21,663 nt of DNA from a virus. Position 1 is the stretch's first letter, and each line of letters starts with the position of its first letter. The notes under the pieces were generated by a model, which did no database searches, was not told the DNA's origin, and saw only the letters and a list, made by a program, of their open reading frames with translations. This document shows, in pieces, positions 3,139 through 9,861 of this stretch. The position numbers and the translations under genes were made by a program. The stretch spans positions 1 through 21,663 of the IMG/VR virus record IMGVR_UViG_3300042540_000763, one strand, 5' to 3'.

Positions 3139-4341
3139 ATGAGCGGTTCTGTCACCGGCTATCAGGCCGGCATTGAAACGACTGAAACGACGCTATCCTA
3201 TGTGCCGGAGAGCGCATGGGGCACGGCGCCAGCGAGCGCCTTCACCGCGCTTCGCATCACCAGCGAAAGCCTATCGGGCAGCAAGGCGCGCACTCGTCCG
3301 AATGAAATCACGGGCAGCCGCCGCGTGTCGCCAGCCGTTACACAAAGCGAACAGGCCAGCGGCGCTATCAATTTCAACCTGTCCTATGGCACGTTTGATG
3401 ATTTTTTTGCGGGCGCGCTTGGTGGCGATTGGACGACGGCGCAAACCATCGCTGGCGTTGGGGCTGACATTACCGTGACCACCGGCACGAATGTTCTCTC
3501 ATCCACCACCTCCAACAAGTTTCAAAACTTGGTCGAGGGCCAGTGGATTGAATTGCGCGGCTTTACGGCTGGCAGCGGTGCGAACAATGGCTATTATCGC
3601 ATTGCCACGAAAAGCAGCAACACAAGCCTCATTCTTGCCGGGCGCCTTATCGCAAGCACCGAAACCCCGGCTGGCACGGCGGCTTCTGTCCGCAATGCCG
3701 GGATGCTTCGCAATGGCGACCTGGTGAAAAGCTACCACCTACAAAATCGCTTTGCCGCTGCGCTTTGGTTGCGCTACGCTGGCGCCATGGTGGGCTCGCT
3801 TTCGCTATCCGGCGGCACCGGCCAATTTTTTACTGGCAGCCTAAACATGGTGGCGCGTGATGAAGTGAGCGCGATTGCCGCCGCTGGTAACGGCACGGTG
3901 AACGCGGCACCCACGGGCGGATTTTTTGACAGCGTGGCCGCCTTTGGTGGCGTTCAAATTGATGACACGGCGCTTACCGCCGCCGTCAATTCCGTGTCTT
4001 TGACGGTCTCCCGCGAAGGCGCTGGCATGGATTACGGGATGGGCAGCGCCGCCGCTCAGGGCGCGCGGTGGGGCCAGGTGCAAGTGGCCGGGCAGATTGA
4101 GCTTTATTTCAAGAGCCTGACGGAATACGCGCTTTTCAAAGCCGAGACGCGCTCGCGCGTGTCTTGGCGCAAGCGTGACCCTGCCGGCAATAGCTATATT
4201 TTCACGCTGCCTGGCGCCAATCTGATGAACCCGAACATTCAGGTTGGCGGGCCAAACCAAGCCATTCTGGCGCGTTTCGACATTGAAGGCGGCAATGATC
4301 TCGCACTGCCAGCCATTCAGATTGATCGTTTCGCCGCCTAA
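3139..4341 (+). CDS. Major tail protein (tail tube)
   Basis: This 400-residue protein is the tail tube subunit that polymerises around the tape measure. The N-terminus, with 'YVPESAWGTAPASAFTALR' near residue 22, 'ITSESLSGSKARTRPNEI' and 'SGAINFNLSYGTFDDFFAGALGG', is typical of the Phage_tube_2 type. Residues about 125-185 look like an inserted beta domain ('NNGYYRIATKSSNTSLIL'). The C-terminal half has 'VSLTVSREGAGMDYGMGS' and 'YALFKAETRSRVSWRKRDPAGN'. AAGGA at 3126-3130 gives a good ribosome-binding site before the ATG. The gene is free-standing, with 48 bases before and 119 bases after, both holding hairpins, which suggests separate control of this high-copy protein. Confidence 0.87.
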   Translation: MSGSVTGYQAGIETTETTLSYVPESAWGTAPASAFTALRITSESLSGSKARTRPNEITGSRRVSPAVTQSEQASGAINFNLSYGTFDDFFAGALGGDWTTAQTIAGVGADITVTTGTNVLSSTTSNKFQNLVEGQWIELRGFTAGSGANNGYYRIATKSSNTSLILAGRLIASTETPAGTAASVRNAGMLRNGDLVKSYHLQNRFAAALWLRYAGAMVGSLSLSGGTGQFFTGSLNMVARDEVSAIAAAGNGTVNAAPTGGFFDSVAAFGGVQIDDTALTAAVNSVSLTVSREGAGMDYGMGSAAAQGARWGQVQVAGQIELYFKSLTEYALFKAETRSRVSWRKRDPAGNSYIFTLPGANLMNPNIQVGGPNQAILARFDIEGGNDLALPAIQIDRFAA

Positions 4342-4345
4342 CAAG

Positions 4346-4418
4346 ATCGCGGCGTAACTGCCGCGATGCTCCCGCGCGGAGCAGGGGCGCCCGGCACGGC
4401 GGGTCGTTGGGCGCCCCT
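4346..4418 (+). other. Three consecutive perfect hairpins after the tail tube gene
   Basis: In the 119-bp gap between tube and chaperone genes: atcgcggc (4346-4353) with gccgcgat (4360-4367), loop 6; tgctcc (4367-4372) with ggagca (4378-4383), loop 5; and aggggcgccc (4383-4392) with gggcgcccct (4409-4418), loop 16. They abut one another almost without spacer and fill most of the gap. No T-run follows, so a simple intrinsic terminator is not shown. A processing site, 3'-end stabiliser for the tube message, or leaky/Rho-assisted terminator are plausible. Confidence 0.55.
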
Positions 4419-4460
4419 ACCATCCCGCAACCCGCCAATCCCGCAAAAGGTTAACCAAAC

Positions 4461-4943
4461 ATGGCTACTAAGCTGAACATGCTCGAGCGCGACGTTGAAG
4501 CGCTTACCGATGGCGTCTGGATCAGGCCAGACGAAACGCTTGACATTGAATTGCTGGTGAAGGCGAAGGATGCCGCCTTCTTTGACGCCGAAAGCGCCGC
4601 TTACCGCAAGCTGCTGCGCCGCGCCAAAGAAGAAGGCGTGATCAAGAATAATAAGCAGGGCTTTGATGGCTTGCCGCCTTCCATGGTGCAGCGCGCGCAA
4701 GATGAACTTGTGCTTTCGCGATTGGTCCTTGGCGTCAAGAACCTGGAAGGCGACAAGGGGCCTATCTCAATTCAGGAATACCGCGAGATGGCGCTTACCG
4801 AGCGCTTCCGCCCGTTGCTGGACATGGCGCGTGAGGCGGTTGCGCTGGCCACTGAGCGTCGCGCATCTGACCGCGAGGAAGCCTTGGGAAACTCCGCACC
4901 TTCGCGGCCTATCAATTCCGATGGAGCCGCGCTGCAAGCGTAG
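4461..4943 (+). CDS. Tail assembly chaperone, G-like
   Basis: A 160-residue, mostly helical and charged protein directly between tail tube and tape measure, the fixed position of the tail assembly chaperone (lambda G analogue). It begins 'ATKLNMLERDVEALTDGVWI', then has an alternating helical region with 'FFDAESAAYRKLLRRAKEEG' and 'SIQEYREMALTERFRPLLDM'. These proteins coat the tape measure and recruit tube subunits. AAAGG about ten bases upstream of the ATG is the likely ribosome-binding site. Its last 17 codons follow a GGGAAAC slippery heptamer (4886-4892) from which a -1 shift enters a long downstream frame, as in the lambda G/GT system. Identification rests on position, composition and the shift site. 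Confidence 0.8.
   Translation: MATKLNMLERDVEALTDGVWIRPDETLDIELLVKAKDAAFFDAESAAYRKLLRRAKEEGVIKNNKQGFDGLPPSMVQRAQDELVLSRLVLGVKNLEGDKGPISIQEYREMALTERFRPLLDMAREAVALATERRASDREEALGNSAPSRPINSDGAALQA
4886..4892 (+). promoter_or_regulatory. -1 programmed frameshift slippery site GGGAAAC
   Basis: In the chaperone reading frame the bases read G-GGA-AAC, an exact X-XXY-YYZ heptamer (codons Gly-Asn). A -1 slip gives GGG-AAA and continues in a frame that is open from 4871 to the TAA at 5216-5218. Ten bases further on, cgcggc (4903-4908) can pair with gccgcg (4926-4931), a possible stimulatory stem, and a second stem gcgctt/aagcgc lies at 4949-4970. Lambda uses GGGAAAG at the same place. Confidence 0.75.
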
Positions 4944-5218
4944 CCGAAGCGCTTGGCGATGGCGAAGCGCAACCTACCCTCGGCGCTGATCTGCTTTGGC
5001 TTTGGACCGCGTGGCAGGGGCTTTCAAGTGAGCGACCTTGGATTGCCGCCGGCATGGGGCCAATGATGCCAAGCGAGACGCCATTTCGCGCCGCGCTGGC
5101 ATGGGCCGACCATCGGGGCATTTATGGCGCTGACCGTGAATTACTGCTAGATGGGCTTCGCATCATCGATGCGGAGTTTTTTGCTGTCCATGCGGAAAAG
5201 GTGAAGGCTGCCAAGTAA
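4892..5218 (+). CDS. T-like part of tail assembly chaperone, made as a -1 fusion
   Basis: This frame has no convincing start of its own. It is open from 4871, entered from the G-like gene by a -1 shift at 4886-4892, and ends at TAA 5216-5218 overlapping the next ATG. It adds 108 residues to 144 from the G-like part, giving a 252-residue GT-like product. The sequence is clearly coding: tryptophan-rich 'ADLLWLWTAWQGLSSERPW', then 'AAGMGPMMPSETPFRAALAW', and 'ADRELLLDGLRIIDAEFF'. In lambda the T domain binds tail tube subunits while G binds the tape measure; the same division is inferred here. The alternative is an independently started gene from one of the internal ATGs near 5054-5068, but those lack a clear ribosome-binding site and would discard half the conserved-looking frame. 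Confidence 0.75.
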   Translation, partial: LRTFAAYQFRWSRAASVAEALGDGEAQPTLGADLLWLWTAWQGLSSERPWIAAGMGPMMPSETPFRAALAWADHRGIYGADRELLLDGLRIIDAEFFAVHAEKVKAAK

Positions 5219-5898
5219 TGTCCTACGCGCGCCAGATTGATGTCTTTATTGATAAGAACCTGTCTGGCGCGGCGCAGTCTGCCGCATTGGCGCGTTTCGC
5301 GCGCAAAGATGTTGCGCGGCGTCAAGCGCAGGGTCGCGCGTCAAAAAATTACACCACTATCGTCGATGGCCGCAAAGGCGCAGCACCTGAAACGGTAAAG
5401 CCTGGCGGCGTTATCGTTTATCAATTCAGCCCTTTAAGAGATGCGGCTGCTTTTGCTTTTGGCTTTCTTGTCGGACGTTCTCCGGTCGGCACAGATAGTA
5501 AATCGCCGGGGCGGTATCGCAAGAGTTGGGTGATTTTTGTGAACTGGCAATTATGGCGCGGTGATCTTGCAAAAATGCCCCGCGATGCTGAAGTAATGAT
5601 TGTCAATCCCCAGCCTTACCACCGCAAGCTGGAAATGACGCGCGGCGGCACGAAGGCAACGCTCACCTATCTTTGCAAGTTGGCAGTAGAGCGGAAATAC
5701 AAAAATGTTCGCGCCAGTCATGTTTTTGTGGAACTGCCGCAAGGTCCGGCGCCCGCGCCATACACCATGAAAGGCGGCTTTGTTTCGCGCCCGCAGTTTT
5801 TTAATTCACGCGGGCGGGCGGTTAAGTTTGGTAAGCCAAAGTTTTCCAATAAGGGTGACGCCATGAATTATCCGGCTGTCATTCTGCGCGCGACTTGA
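5218..5898 (+). CDS. Unidentified minor tail protein between chaperone and tape measure
   Basis: A 226-residue basic protein whose ATG overlaps the stop of the T-like frame (TAATG), so it belongs to the tail-assembly cassette. I do not recognise the family. The central part has 'FAFGFLVGRSPVGTDSKSPG' and then 'YRKSWVIFVN', which loosely recalls the 'aPv.TG.lr.Sw' pattern of HK97 gp10-type tail proteins, although here it follows rather than precedes the tube gene. The C-terminal third is rich in Lys/Arg and aromatic residues (YHRKLEMTRGGTKATLTYL; NVRASHVFVELPQG). Codon use is less GC-rich than that of neighbours. A role in tail initiation or tube-tape joining is plausible only from position. 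Confidence 0.6.
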   Translation: MSYARQIDVFIDKNLSGAAQSAALARFARKDVARRQAQGRASKNYTTIVDGRKGAAPETVKPGGVIVYQFSPLRDAAAFAFGFLVGRSPVGTDSKSPGRYRKSWVIFVNWQLWRGDLAKMPRDAEVMIVNPQPYHRKLEMTRGGTKATLTYLCKLAVERKYKNVRASHVFVELPQGPAPAPYTMKGGFVSRPQFFNSRGRAVKFGKPKFSNKGDAMNYPAVILRAT

Positions 5899-5910: not shown

Positions 5911-8900
5911 ATGGCGACCACTGAAGAAGTCGATCTCGCATATCGAACTCGTTTCCAGGATCAGATGAGCGCTGGCGTAAAGGCGGCGACAGATCAATTG
6001 AAAAACATGGGCGCCGCTATGGACGCCACAGAGGTTAAGGCGCAGAAGGCGGAAAAGAGTTTTACGACACTTGTAACAAAGATTGACGCCAGCGCGAAAG
6101 TGGCGCTTGCCAAGGCGCGTGCGGATGAGCAACTGGCATTAAGTATCGCCAGGATCAATGCAGAAATCGGAACAAAATTTGTTCCAAACCAAACCCGAGC
6201 CAATGAACTCATCCAAAAGGCAACGCGCGACCGCGAGGTTTATATTGCGCGGCTAGAACGCAGCATCGCGCTTGAACAACGCAATAATCAGGCTGCTCTA
6301 GATTTCGCCAAGAACGGCGGCGCGGCTATGACTAGCCTTTCCGCATCTTCAAGCGCGGCGGCTCGCAGCATTGGCTTGATTGGCGCGAATTTTGGCACGG
6401 CTGGCAATACGCTGATGTCTTTCGCCAGTGGCGCAGGCGGCGTGGCTGTTGCGCTTGCTGCGATTGGCGCCAGCGCCATTGCGGCGGGCAGTGGCATAGC
6501 ACGCGCCGGGGATCAGGCGACGGCTTCCTTGGCGCGCCTAGGGGCCGCGACAGGATCAATCGGCGCGGCGGAAAAGGCTTATCAAAGCCTGTTTGAGTTG
6601 TCGCAAAAGACTGGCGTTGCGGTATCCGAAAGCGCCGGAGCTTTTGGACGTTTCGCTGTCGCAGCGCGCGACATCGGCGCCACTCAGGCGCAAGTCCTTA
6701 GCCTTGTGCAGACGATTCAGCAAGCGGGGATTGTTGCGGGCACTAGCACACAAGAAACAGCATCTGCCACAATGCAGTTGGGCCAGGCTCTTGCATCCGG
6801 AAAATTTCAAGGCGATGAACTACGCTCAGTTATGGAAAACATGCCGCCGCTTGCTGCCGGATTGGCTCGCGAATTGGGCGTAGGAGTTGGCGAACTTCGC
6901 AAGCTTGGTTCCGAGGGCAAGTTAACCACAGATGTAGTTTTCCCTGCATTGTTGCGCTTGGGTCAATCCATCAATGTCGAGTTTGAGAAAATGCCGGTCA
7001 CTATGGCGCGGTCATTTTCAATTCTTGGCGAGGCAATGACGCGCTTTGCGGCGGACTTGGACCGCGCGCTTGGATTGTCGCAGGGCATTGCGCGGGCGGC
7101 GCAAACGGCGGCAGCGGCGGTAAATGCGGGGCGCCAGACTTTGGGCCTTGGCACTCCTTTGGAAATGGCAACATCCGGTTATGACCGTAGCCGTGAGCGC
7201 GTGACTAATCTGGATCAGCAGATTGCCAATGCTGAAGGCGCGCTTGGTGGCGCCATGCCAGGGGGCACACGCGGCATTATGCGCCGCAATCTTGACGCAT
7301 TGAGGCAAGAGCGCGTTCTCGCCATTCAGGAGCTTGAAAGGTTCATCGCGCAACGGAACCAGTTGGAGAGTGAAGCGCAACAGGCTGGCGAGGCGGAGGA
7401 ATACACTGCCGGGCAGCGCGCCATTCAATCGCAGCGGAATAGGGATCAGGCGCGGCTAGAGGAACTCTACAAGGCGCTGGATAAGGACCGCACTATTCGC
7501 GCCGAACATGCCGAGCGTGTAAGGCAGATTGACGAATTGGCAGCGCGCGGCACGCTCAATCAAGAAGAGGCAACGCGCCTTCGCACCATTGCCGAACGCG
7601 ACCGCGATGCATCCTTGTCGCGCCTTGTCGAGCGCAGCGATAGGGCGCGCGATGCGACTGACCGTTTGACGGATGCCCAGCGCGACAATCAAAGGCTTGT
7701 GCAACAGGGCGTGTCATTGGCGGAAAGCGCCGCAACGGAAAATGAAAAATACGAGGCGCAAGTGCGCGCTTTGGCGGCGGCTTTGAGCGCCGGGCAAATA
7801 TCTCAGGAACGCTATAACAGGGCTGTCGCGCAATTAAGCCCTGCCATGCGTGAAGCGCGGCAGGCTGAAGAACGCGCCTTGCAGGAGCGCGAGCGCCTTA
7901 ATCGGCAGATTACCGATGACATAGTGCGGTATTCGGCGGATAGCTTCGCTACGCTTTGGAGCAATACCGGGCGCGGCTTTGCCGGCCTGATGGAGAGCAT
8001 GTTGCAGATGGTGCGCCGCACTTTCGCGCGCATCGCGGCAGAGGCGGTAATCCGGCCAATCGTGACGCCTATCGTGTCGAGTTTCGTGACGCCGATCATG
8101 GGCGCGCTGGGCTTTGGCGGTGGCATGGCGCCGGGCGGTGTAAGCGCAGGCGGCGGCGGCGGTATTGGCGCGGGCCAGATATTGCAGGCAGGGCAGGCGA
8201 TTTCTGGCATGGCGGGCGGTGGTGGTAGCCTGATGAATATGCTCGGGCTGGGCGGTGCTGGTGCGGGCATCAGTAGCTTTTTGGCGCAGCCGATCTTTGG
8301 GGCCGCAGCGCAAGCAAGCGCCACAAACAGCGCGCTTGCGGCTATGCCTGGCGGCATGATGGGGCCGGCTACACCAGCCGCAGTAGGTGTCCCCGGCATG
8401 AGCATCGGCGCCGTCGCTGGTTCTGCCGCCGCAGGCTTCGGCGCTGGCATGCTGGGCGGCACGATTAGCGGCGGTATTCGTGGCACGGCTGATCCTACAG
8501 CTGGCAGCGCGATTGGCGCGGCTATTGGCACCGCTATCGGCTTTGCGCTTATTCCTGTTCTAGGCCCGCTTGGCCCGATCATCGGCGGTTTTGTCGGCGG
8601 CACGGCAGGCGGCCTGTTCGGCCCGACGCGCAAAGGTATGGCTGCGCGCGCGGGCGGCGATGTGTTCCTGGGCGTCAATGACGCTGGCCTTCTGAACATC
8701 ACAAACGCCGCCGGCAAGCGTTGGGATCAGGGCGGCGCCACGGCGGCGGTGCAACAGCAGCTTGACGCCATCAACCAGCAGGCAGCGGCGCGCGGCCTGA
8801 CCTTTGCCGCGCCTGGGCAACACGCGGTCGGCTTTGGGCAGGCGTCATCATCGCCGCGCGAATTGCAGCAGGCGGCGTTTATCGCTCAGCTTCGCAGCGG

Positions 8901-9861
8901 TAATGTCAATCAGATGACCGCCTTCTCCACGCTGGCGGGGCGGCAATCTTCCACGCTGGAACAAGCCTTTCAGGCGGCGGATTTTGTCACGCAAATTTAT
9001 GATCCGCTGACCCGCGCGGCGGAACAAACCAGCGCCTTCACGGCGGCGATGGAAGCCTTAACCAAGGCTTACGATGACGCCATAACCAAGGCGCGCGACT
9101 TGGGCTTGTCTGAGGCTGATCTGGCAGCGCAGCGCGCGGAACGCATCGCAAAGCTTGAAGCCGACCGCGCCCGCGATCTGGACATCATAGACCGCACCAT
9201 TGCATCGCGCCGCATGATTGCGGCGGGCGATACGCGCGGCGCGAACCTGACGCAATTTGACCTTCGGGCGGAAGCGGAATTGCGCGCCTTCGGGGATCAG
9301 CTTTTCGCGCTTGGGTTTGAGCGCACCGGCGATGAATACCGCCGCCGCGTGGTGGAATTGGAGCAGGTCATCGCCGATGAACGGCTGGCCGTGATGCGCC
9401 AATTTGACAACCAGATGCGCGGCATTACGCAAGGCTTGCTGGAAGGCCTGACGCTTGGCGATTTGGGCGGCCTGCCGCTTGAAGCGCGCTACGGCGCGGC
9501 CTTGTCCAGCCTATCGGCGGCGCAGCAGCCTTTGTTGGACGGCGCGACGCCAGAAGAATTGGCCGAGTTTGCGCGCGTGGCACAGATTGCGCTGCCTGTC
9601 GCGCGGGAGTTTCTCGGCATTTCCGGCAGCTTTGCGGAATTGGTGGCGGATGTTTCCCGCACGCTCCGCACCGCTGCGCCGGGCACTGATCCGGCCAATC
9701 TGGGCGCGCTTTTGGAAGCCCAGGTGGCGGGCGCTGATCGGCTGGAATTGGCCGTGATCGGCACCGGCCAGGCGCAAACGCAAGTCTTGAATAGCCTGCT
9801 GACCGAACTGCGGCGATTGACAGCGCAGAATGAAGCGCTGTTGGCGCGCGCTACTGTTTAA
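5911..9861 (+). CDS. Tape measure protein
   Basis: A 1316-residue protein, the longest in the window, in the expected place after the chaperone. Residues about 200-350 carry the tape-measure N-terminal domain, with the signature 'GDELRSVMENMPPLAAGLAR' near 301 followed by 'LRKLGSEGKLTTDVVFPAL'. A hydrophobic Ala/Gly segment lies at about 171-197. Residues about 430-680 are charged coiled coil. About 735-910 is Gly/Ala/Met-rich and hydrophobic, suited to membrane interaction during DNA ejection, and about 1055-1170 is a second coiled coil. The start has AAGGGGG at 5897-5903 in front. With the usual rule of about 0.15 nm per residue, the tail would be close to 200 nm, an estimate only. No lytic transglycosylase or peptidase motif is apparent. 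Confidence 0.93.
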   Translation: MATTEEVDLAYRTRFQDQMSAGVKAATDQLKNMGAAMDATEVKAQKAEKSFTTLVTKIDASAKVALAKARADEQLALSIARINAEIGTKFVPNQTRANELIQKATRDREVYIARLERSIALEQRNNQAALDFAKNGGAAMTSLSASSSAAARSIGLIGANFGTAGNTLMSFASGAGGVAVALAAIGASAIAAGSGIARAGDQATASLARLGAATGSIGAAEKAYQSLFELSQKTGVAVSESAGAFGRFAVAARDIGATQAQVLSLVQTIQQAGIVAGTSTQETASATMQLGQALASGKFQGDELRSVMENMPPLAAGLARELGVGVGELRKLGSEGKLTTDVVFPALLRLGQSINVEFEKMPVTMARSFSILGEAMTRFAADLDRALGLSQGIARAAQTAAAAVNAGRQTLGLGTPLEMATSGYDRSRERVTNLDQQIANAEGALGGAMPGGTRGIMRRNLDALRQERVLAIQELERFIAQRNQLESEAQQAGEAEEYTAGQRAIQSQRNRDQARLEELYKALDKDRTIRAEHAERVRQIDELAARGTLNQEEATRLRTIAERDRDASLSRLVERSDRARDATDRLTDAQRDNQRLVQQGVSLAESAATENEKYEAQVRALAAALSAGQISQERYNRAVAQLSPAMREARQAEERALQERERLNRQITDDIVRYSADSFATLWSNTGRGFAGLMESMLQMVRRTFARIAAEAVIRPIVTPIVSSFVTPIMGALGFGGGMAPGGVSAGGGGGIGAGQILQAGQAISGMAGGGGSLMNMLGLGGAGAGISSFLAQPIFGAAAQASATNSALAAMPGGMMGPATPAAVGVPGMSIGAVAGSAAAGFGAGMLGGTISGGIRGTADPTAGSAIGAAIGTAIGFALIPVLGPLGPIIGGFVGGTAGGLFGPTRKGMAARAGGDVFLGVNDAGLLNITNAAGKRWDQGGATAAVQQQLDAINQQAAARGLTFAAPGQHAVGFGQASSSPRELQQAAFIAQLRSGNVNQMTAFSTLAGRQSSTLEQAFQAADFVTQIYDPLTRAAEQTSAFTAAMEALTKAYDDAITKARDLGLSEADLAAQRAERIAKLEADRARDLDIIDRTIASRRMIAAGDTRGANLTQFDLRAEAELRAFGDQLFALGFERTGDEYRRRVVELEQVIADERLAVMRQFDNQMRGITQGLLEGLTLGDLGGLPLEARYGAALSSLSAAQQPLLDGATPEELAEFARVAQIALPVAREFLGISGSFAELVADVSRTLRTAAPGTDPANLGALLEAQVAGADRLELAVIGTGQAQTQVLNSLLTELRRLTAQNEALLARATV

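Follow-up and report, generated by a model that had tools for sequence, protein, structure and literature searches.

Probable -1 ribosomal frameshifting at a conserved GGGAAAC heptamer in a viral tail assembly chaperone gene

The gene at positions 4461-5218 of the 21,663-base virus record analysed here by computation (the whole of this stretch is called the window) very probably makes two tail assembly chaperones by -1 slippage at the heptamer G_GGA_AAC. We infer the shifting itself, its rate and the stimulatory role of a downstream hairpin, and the chaperone and assembly roles of the two domains, G and T, would be those of their lambda counterparts. Added here are comparative support from the whole clade of the window, a covarying hairpin, and the finding that the family as a rule uses AAC and not AAG in hosts of different classes. 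Deposited relatives, for example phage Cd, XM05 and MD18, leave T unannotated or assign it a false internal start.

In the proposed mechanism, of a kind known from many long-tailed phages, most ribosomes would keep to the 0 frame, terminate at 4943 and so produce a G-like protein of 160 aa. A minority would slip back one base on G_GGA_AAC (4886-4892), aided by a hairpin 10 nt downstream, and these would read the -1 frame to 5218, giving a GT-like protein of about 252 aa. If the pair works as in lambda, binding of the tape measure protein would fall to the G part and recruitment of the tail tube protein to the T part, and assembly would be sensitive to the G:GT ratio.

Results

The gene and its neighbours

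The features of the region are these:

3139..4341, + strand: tail tube protein gene (Pfam PF18906 Phage_tube_2, E 3.6e-36), directly before the chaperone pair
4461..4943, + strand: G-like 0-frame ORF of 160 aa, short tail assembly chaperone (phrog_19222, E 2.6e-25)
4871..5218, + strand: -1 open frame with the T-like extension (phrog_3817; PF23812 via relatives; dN/dS)
4886..4892, + strand: slippery heptamer, G_GGA_AAC to GGG_AAA_C (sequence; invariant in the clade, same site in distant relatives)
4893..4902, + strand: 10-nt spacer (sequence and fold)
4903..4931, + strand: probable stimulatory hairpin (fold energy, pairing and covariation)
4941..4943, + strand: 0-frame stop TAG (sequence)
5218..5898, + strand: conserved gene between GT and tape measure (phrog_16336, E 3.9e-48, a family given no function)
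5911..9861, + strand: tape measure protein gene (Pfam PF20155 TMP_3, E 3.5e-52)

The pair thus has the position of a G/GT pair, with Phage_tube_2 upstream, TMP_3 downstream and one gene intervening. The start of that gene overlaps the T stop as TAATG, the gene beginning at the A of the overlap. Two further observations were made in the window. The intergenic region that separates G from the tail tube gene holds a strong hairpin at 4374-4428 (-38.3 kcal/mol, z -2.1) without a clear T run, possibly a transcript processing or attenuation element, and positions 974-1783 encode a predicted protein of short Ala/Gly-rich repeats (ATASLIAGAATGAA-like).

The + strand has a single GGGAAAC in its 21.7 kb, at 4886-4892, in the phase G_GGA_AAC of the ORF 4461-4943; the preliminary description had its coordinates and phase, and the stop at 4943, correct. 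The -1 frame opens at 4871 after a TGA at 4868 and ends with the TAA at 5216-5218. Its first ATG, GTG or TTG comes only at 5054, which is codon 56. The T extension is 108 residues beyond Gly-Asn, or 108-110 aa counted from the heptamer (4886-5215), and is followed by the TAA. In-phase X_XXY_YYZ motifs number 17 in 5467 codons, which gives about 0.07 expected per 24-codon overlap, and the heptamer in the overlap exceeds this chance expectation. A Shine-Dalgarno-like GAGGA lies at 4875-4879, 6 nt 5' of the heptamer, and is kept in the clade; its conservation is also accounted for by the Arg-Glu-Glu codons.

Conservation of the junction

Scans of viral contigs gave 25 loci with G as query and 23 with T, and every junction at which both frames could be located carries GGGAAAC. 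As a viral query, the alignment of G yielded little beyond the loci already known, and the broad alignment of T offered no stretch suited to searching, so the neighbouring gene 5218-5898 was taken as an independent query; relatives found in this way are found without using the site, which guards against circularity. It led to prophages of Gluconobacter and of other Alphaproteobacteria and to a contig near phage Cd. Where G and T are recognisable in these relatives, the junction carries GGGAAAC or AAAAAAC, with the exception of one (L130).

Among the phage records from the protein search, GGGAAAC is present in Lacusarx, XM05, L02, RXM, MD18, RcXuper, RpAliso, Gurke, Siara, Mwe-JY26, ctIqW946, CcrColossus, Sulfitobacter M39, RcSimone-Hastad, YuA and CN2. 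AAAAAAC is present in Ccr10, CcrBL9, Cp1R7A-A1, S0112, 83AMN, phage 73, Kmi2C and Langgrundblatt2. The junction of EBPR siphovirus 3 reads GGGAAAG, and a canonical heptamer is lacking in Vibrio PH669 and Limnohabitans DC31. Tabulated G/T junctions number 53 (42 GGGAAAC and 11 AAAAAAC), all with T in the -1 frame, in a table that takes in only heptamers of these forms, many of them from one clade, and omits L130, PH669, DC31 and EBPR siphovirus 3. The conserved in-phase X_XXY_YYZ site of the G/GT class was found with four exceptions, and GGGAAAC or AAAAAAC still marks the junction in relatives whose proteins are as little as about 20-25% identical. The candidate heptamers of L138, L139, L146 and L173 were rejected as lying outside any recognised G/T junction, and a match to the portal gene of Dulem virus 32 was judged spurious.

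The records differ in how the junction is annotated. Siara, CcrColossus and RcSimone-Hastad are annotated by others as having frameshift products. In phage Cd (L002:2358-2725) the T frame is without annotation in the deposited record, in XM05 (L053:1363-1506) an antisense ORF is annotated inside T, and in MD18 (L056:1435-1602) the annotation covers only the end of T. At L028:3001-3100, T and most of G resemble L018 and the G N-terminus differs (RDAPARSGGAWHGGSSG...), through either recombination or chimeric assembly. At L130:2022-2492 (junction 2128-2165), homologous G and T stand in the -1 relation without an X_XXY_YYZ heptamer, the aligned position reading CCCTTCCTC; this relative has possibly switched to reinitiation or to a different slip site.

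Could T instead be a separate protein, made without a frameshift, either from an internal start or through reinitiation once translation has terminated at the G stop? Some relatives have early TTG or ATG codons in T, where annotators often call an internal start, and L130, which lacks the heptamer, has a TTG 5 nt after its G stop. Against this, the first start in the T of the window clade comes no earlier than codons 35-57, and neither the position nor the type of the start codon is conserved. In addition, early T (GKLRxFA...) is conserved as protein though it lies upstream of any start, and the conservation of the heptamer extends to about 20-25% protein identity. We consider a separately initiated T very unlikely.

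Alignment of homologues of both frames had been proposed as one check on frameshifting, and it finds the heptamer and the -1 frame conserved. A downstream frame with a standard start codon and ribosome-binding site was named beforehand as telling against frameshifting, as was loss of the heptamer; the window clade yielded none of the former, and its 16 sampled sequences all have the heptamer unchanged.

Coding in both frames

The variability of codon positions was taken from 16 sampled sequences of the window clade, with G identity down to 54%. Upstream of the heptamer the mean minor-allele frequency is 0.298 at 0-frame third positions versus 0.028 at second positions. All 16 have the same heptamer, and 3' of it the variability shows a dual-coding pattern, with constraint on both frames. 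Past the 0-frame stop, dN/dS in the T frame is 0.06-0.32 (six pairs), versus at least 0.98 in control frames. The extension frame is therefore coding and without a conserved start of its own, and the earlier reading of 4871-5218 as a -1 frame with a 108-residue coding extension and no credible start is borne out by these ratios and by the lack of any start before 5054.

The variability pattern and the dN/dS of T together place the frame change at the heptamer, as a genuine change and not an assembly error. A pseudogene, or an assembly frameshift error within one gene, has nothing in its favour beyond the bare frame change. The identical change is seen in more than 20 independent contigs, as well as in isolate phages and prophages, and both frames are under purifying selection. 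This explanation is already refuted by the independent sequences, and we leave it a negligible probability.

The downstream hairpin

The hairpin at 4903-4931 starts 10 nt 3' of the heptamer and consists of 6 bp, a 1-nt bulge (4925) and 5 bp, closing a 6-nt loop at 4914-4919; the fold of 4893-4943 has -21 kcal/mol and z -2.8. The preliminary description had a 6-bp GC stem 10 bases downstream, of which the distance stands and the size has to be revised to 11 bp. Most reported spacers to 3' stimulators measure 5-9 nt, the extremes being about 3 and 15 (PMC5009743). Across 12 distinct sequences, 97.7% of cells are paired. Two pairs have changed on both sides, U-A to C-G and C-G to G-C, and the covariation score was matched by one of 500 shuffles and is higher than that of every slid version. 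Relatedness is not taken into account in the shuffles, and the double changes are confined to two related sequences (L017 and L029); the covariation support is good, yet it stems from one divergence. In L018 the hairpin is partly broken.

An Rfam scan gave no match, and phage Cd (z +1.4), L126 and YuA yielded no significant fold of a comparable kind. A 13-bp hairpin in the Gluconobacter prophage L167 (z -4.5) was rejected, as it is not kept in its clade (78.8% paired, within the shuffle range). On the pattern of pairing in the window clade, the hairpin at 4903-4931 probably acts as a frameshift stimulator.

Slippage could also occur in transcription and not on the ribosome. The six-A run of the AAAAAAC relatives could in principle permit polymerase slippage, but the homopolymers of GGGAAAC are no longer than three. 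Relatives alternate between GGGAAAC and AAAAAAC, which have the X_XXY_YYZ form in common and no common long run, and the covarying downstream hairpin suits a ribosomal stimulator. Transcriptional slippage is accordingly less probable still than separate initiation of T.

Protein families and folds

The T of the window matches phrog_3817, 'tail chaperonin' (E 1.6e-9). PF23812 Phage_TAC_18 is matched by all 21 of the 21 aligned members of the T family (best 1.4e-23). The window's own T has E 0.06 and 13.9 bits versus a cut-off of 27, so the assignment to PF23812 comes via the relatives. For G, 8/19 family members match phrog_313, 'Tail assembly chaperone' (best 9.5e-12). The AlphaFold model of G has pLDDT 78.8, and its best BFVD matches are tail assembly chaperones, including that of CcrColossus (E 1.4e-4 to 2.9e-4); as modelled, the 0-frame product folds like phage tail chaperones. 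Residues 145-160, which follow Gly-Asn and are encoded past the heptamer, are predicted to be disordered.

Searches of solved structures by sequence and fold found nothing significant for the G or T domain. Neither G nor T has a match to a lambda-type family in Pfam, and homology to lambda gpG/gpT was not recovered by this route; the relation to lambda G/GT is one of 'works like', not 'is'. With that restriction, the earlier proposal of a G/GT-like pair made by -1 slippage is supported by the tail-chaperone family of T, the chaperone fold of G and the conserved heptamer.

Discussion

The slip codon AAC and the rate of shifting

AAC had been described as a less common A-site codon. This does not hold in the present chaperone family, where GGGAAAC or AAAAAAC is the norm: the AAC rule spans alpha-, beta- and gammaproteobacterial hosts, and AAG was seen once, in EBPR siphovirus 3. 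One explanation was that AAC reflects hosts having, as Alphaproteobacteria typically do, a separate tRNA-Lys(CUU). It was dropped because the gammaproteobacterial phages 73, S0112, 83AMN, Kmi2C and Siara use AAC, and AAC therefore looks like a family trait.

In E. coli, slippage is much weaker on A_AAA_AAC than on A_AAA_AAG (PMC5009743), so the shift rate could be low. In lambda the functional G:GT ratio is 30:1 and neither protein stays in the mature virion (PMC5009743); a low rate would therefore still be compatible with function. It is possible, though doubtful, that AAC, the weaker slip codon if the E. coli ranking holds, was selected for low GT, and that the covarying hairpin of the clade tunes GT up. 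This hairpin is housed in the 16-codon tail of G that is predicted to be disordered, and the window clade offers a comparative case for the balance of weak slip codon, hairpin and dual coding.

The absence of lambda G and GT from the mature virion also makes virion mass spectrometry the wrong test if the pair is lambda-like. Moreover, the junction peptide may read Gly-Lys-Leu instead of Gly-Asn-Leu if the slip precedes A-site decoding.

Comparison with known systems

The lambda G/GT slip heptamer is GGGAAAG. In E. coli, G_GGA_AAG is highly shift-prone (PMC5009743). Unlike lambda G/GT, the window has an extra gene before the tape measure.

GGGAAAC has already been proposed for the tail chaperones of CcrColossus (PMC3556154), KL1 (PMC3483164) and HCTV-1 (PMC5009743). 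Caulobacter phage CcrColossus gp116/gp117 (PMC3556154; L067) resembles the window in its GGGAAAC, its -1 frame, a T of the same family, a G that ends in -GN and a matching G fold (E 2.3e-4). It differs in that its slip site is immediately before the stop, without the 16-codon 0-frame tail, and that its GT adjoins the tape measure with no gene between; T identity is about 21%. Burkholderia phage KL1 gp18/gp19, by published prediction (PMC3483164), shares GGGAAAC and a gene that separates GT from the tape measure, but its heptamer is directly followed by a TGA stop.

Azospirillum phage Cd gp41 and its -1 frame (L002) have the same gene order, GGGAAAC at the junction and a homologous next gene, gp42, with local identities to the window of 26% for G and 39% for T. 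Unlike in the window, the heptamer of phage Cd abuts a TAA and is followed by no significant hairpin. The pair of the window is thus of a familiar kind, for which GGGAAAC tail-chaperone shifts have already been published.
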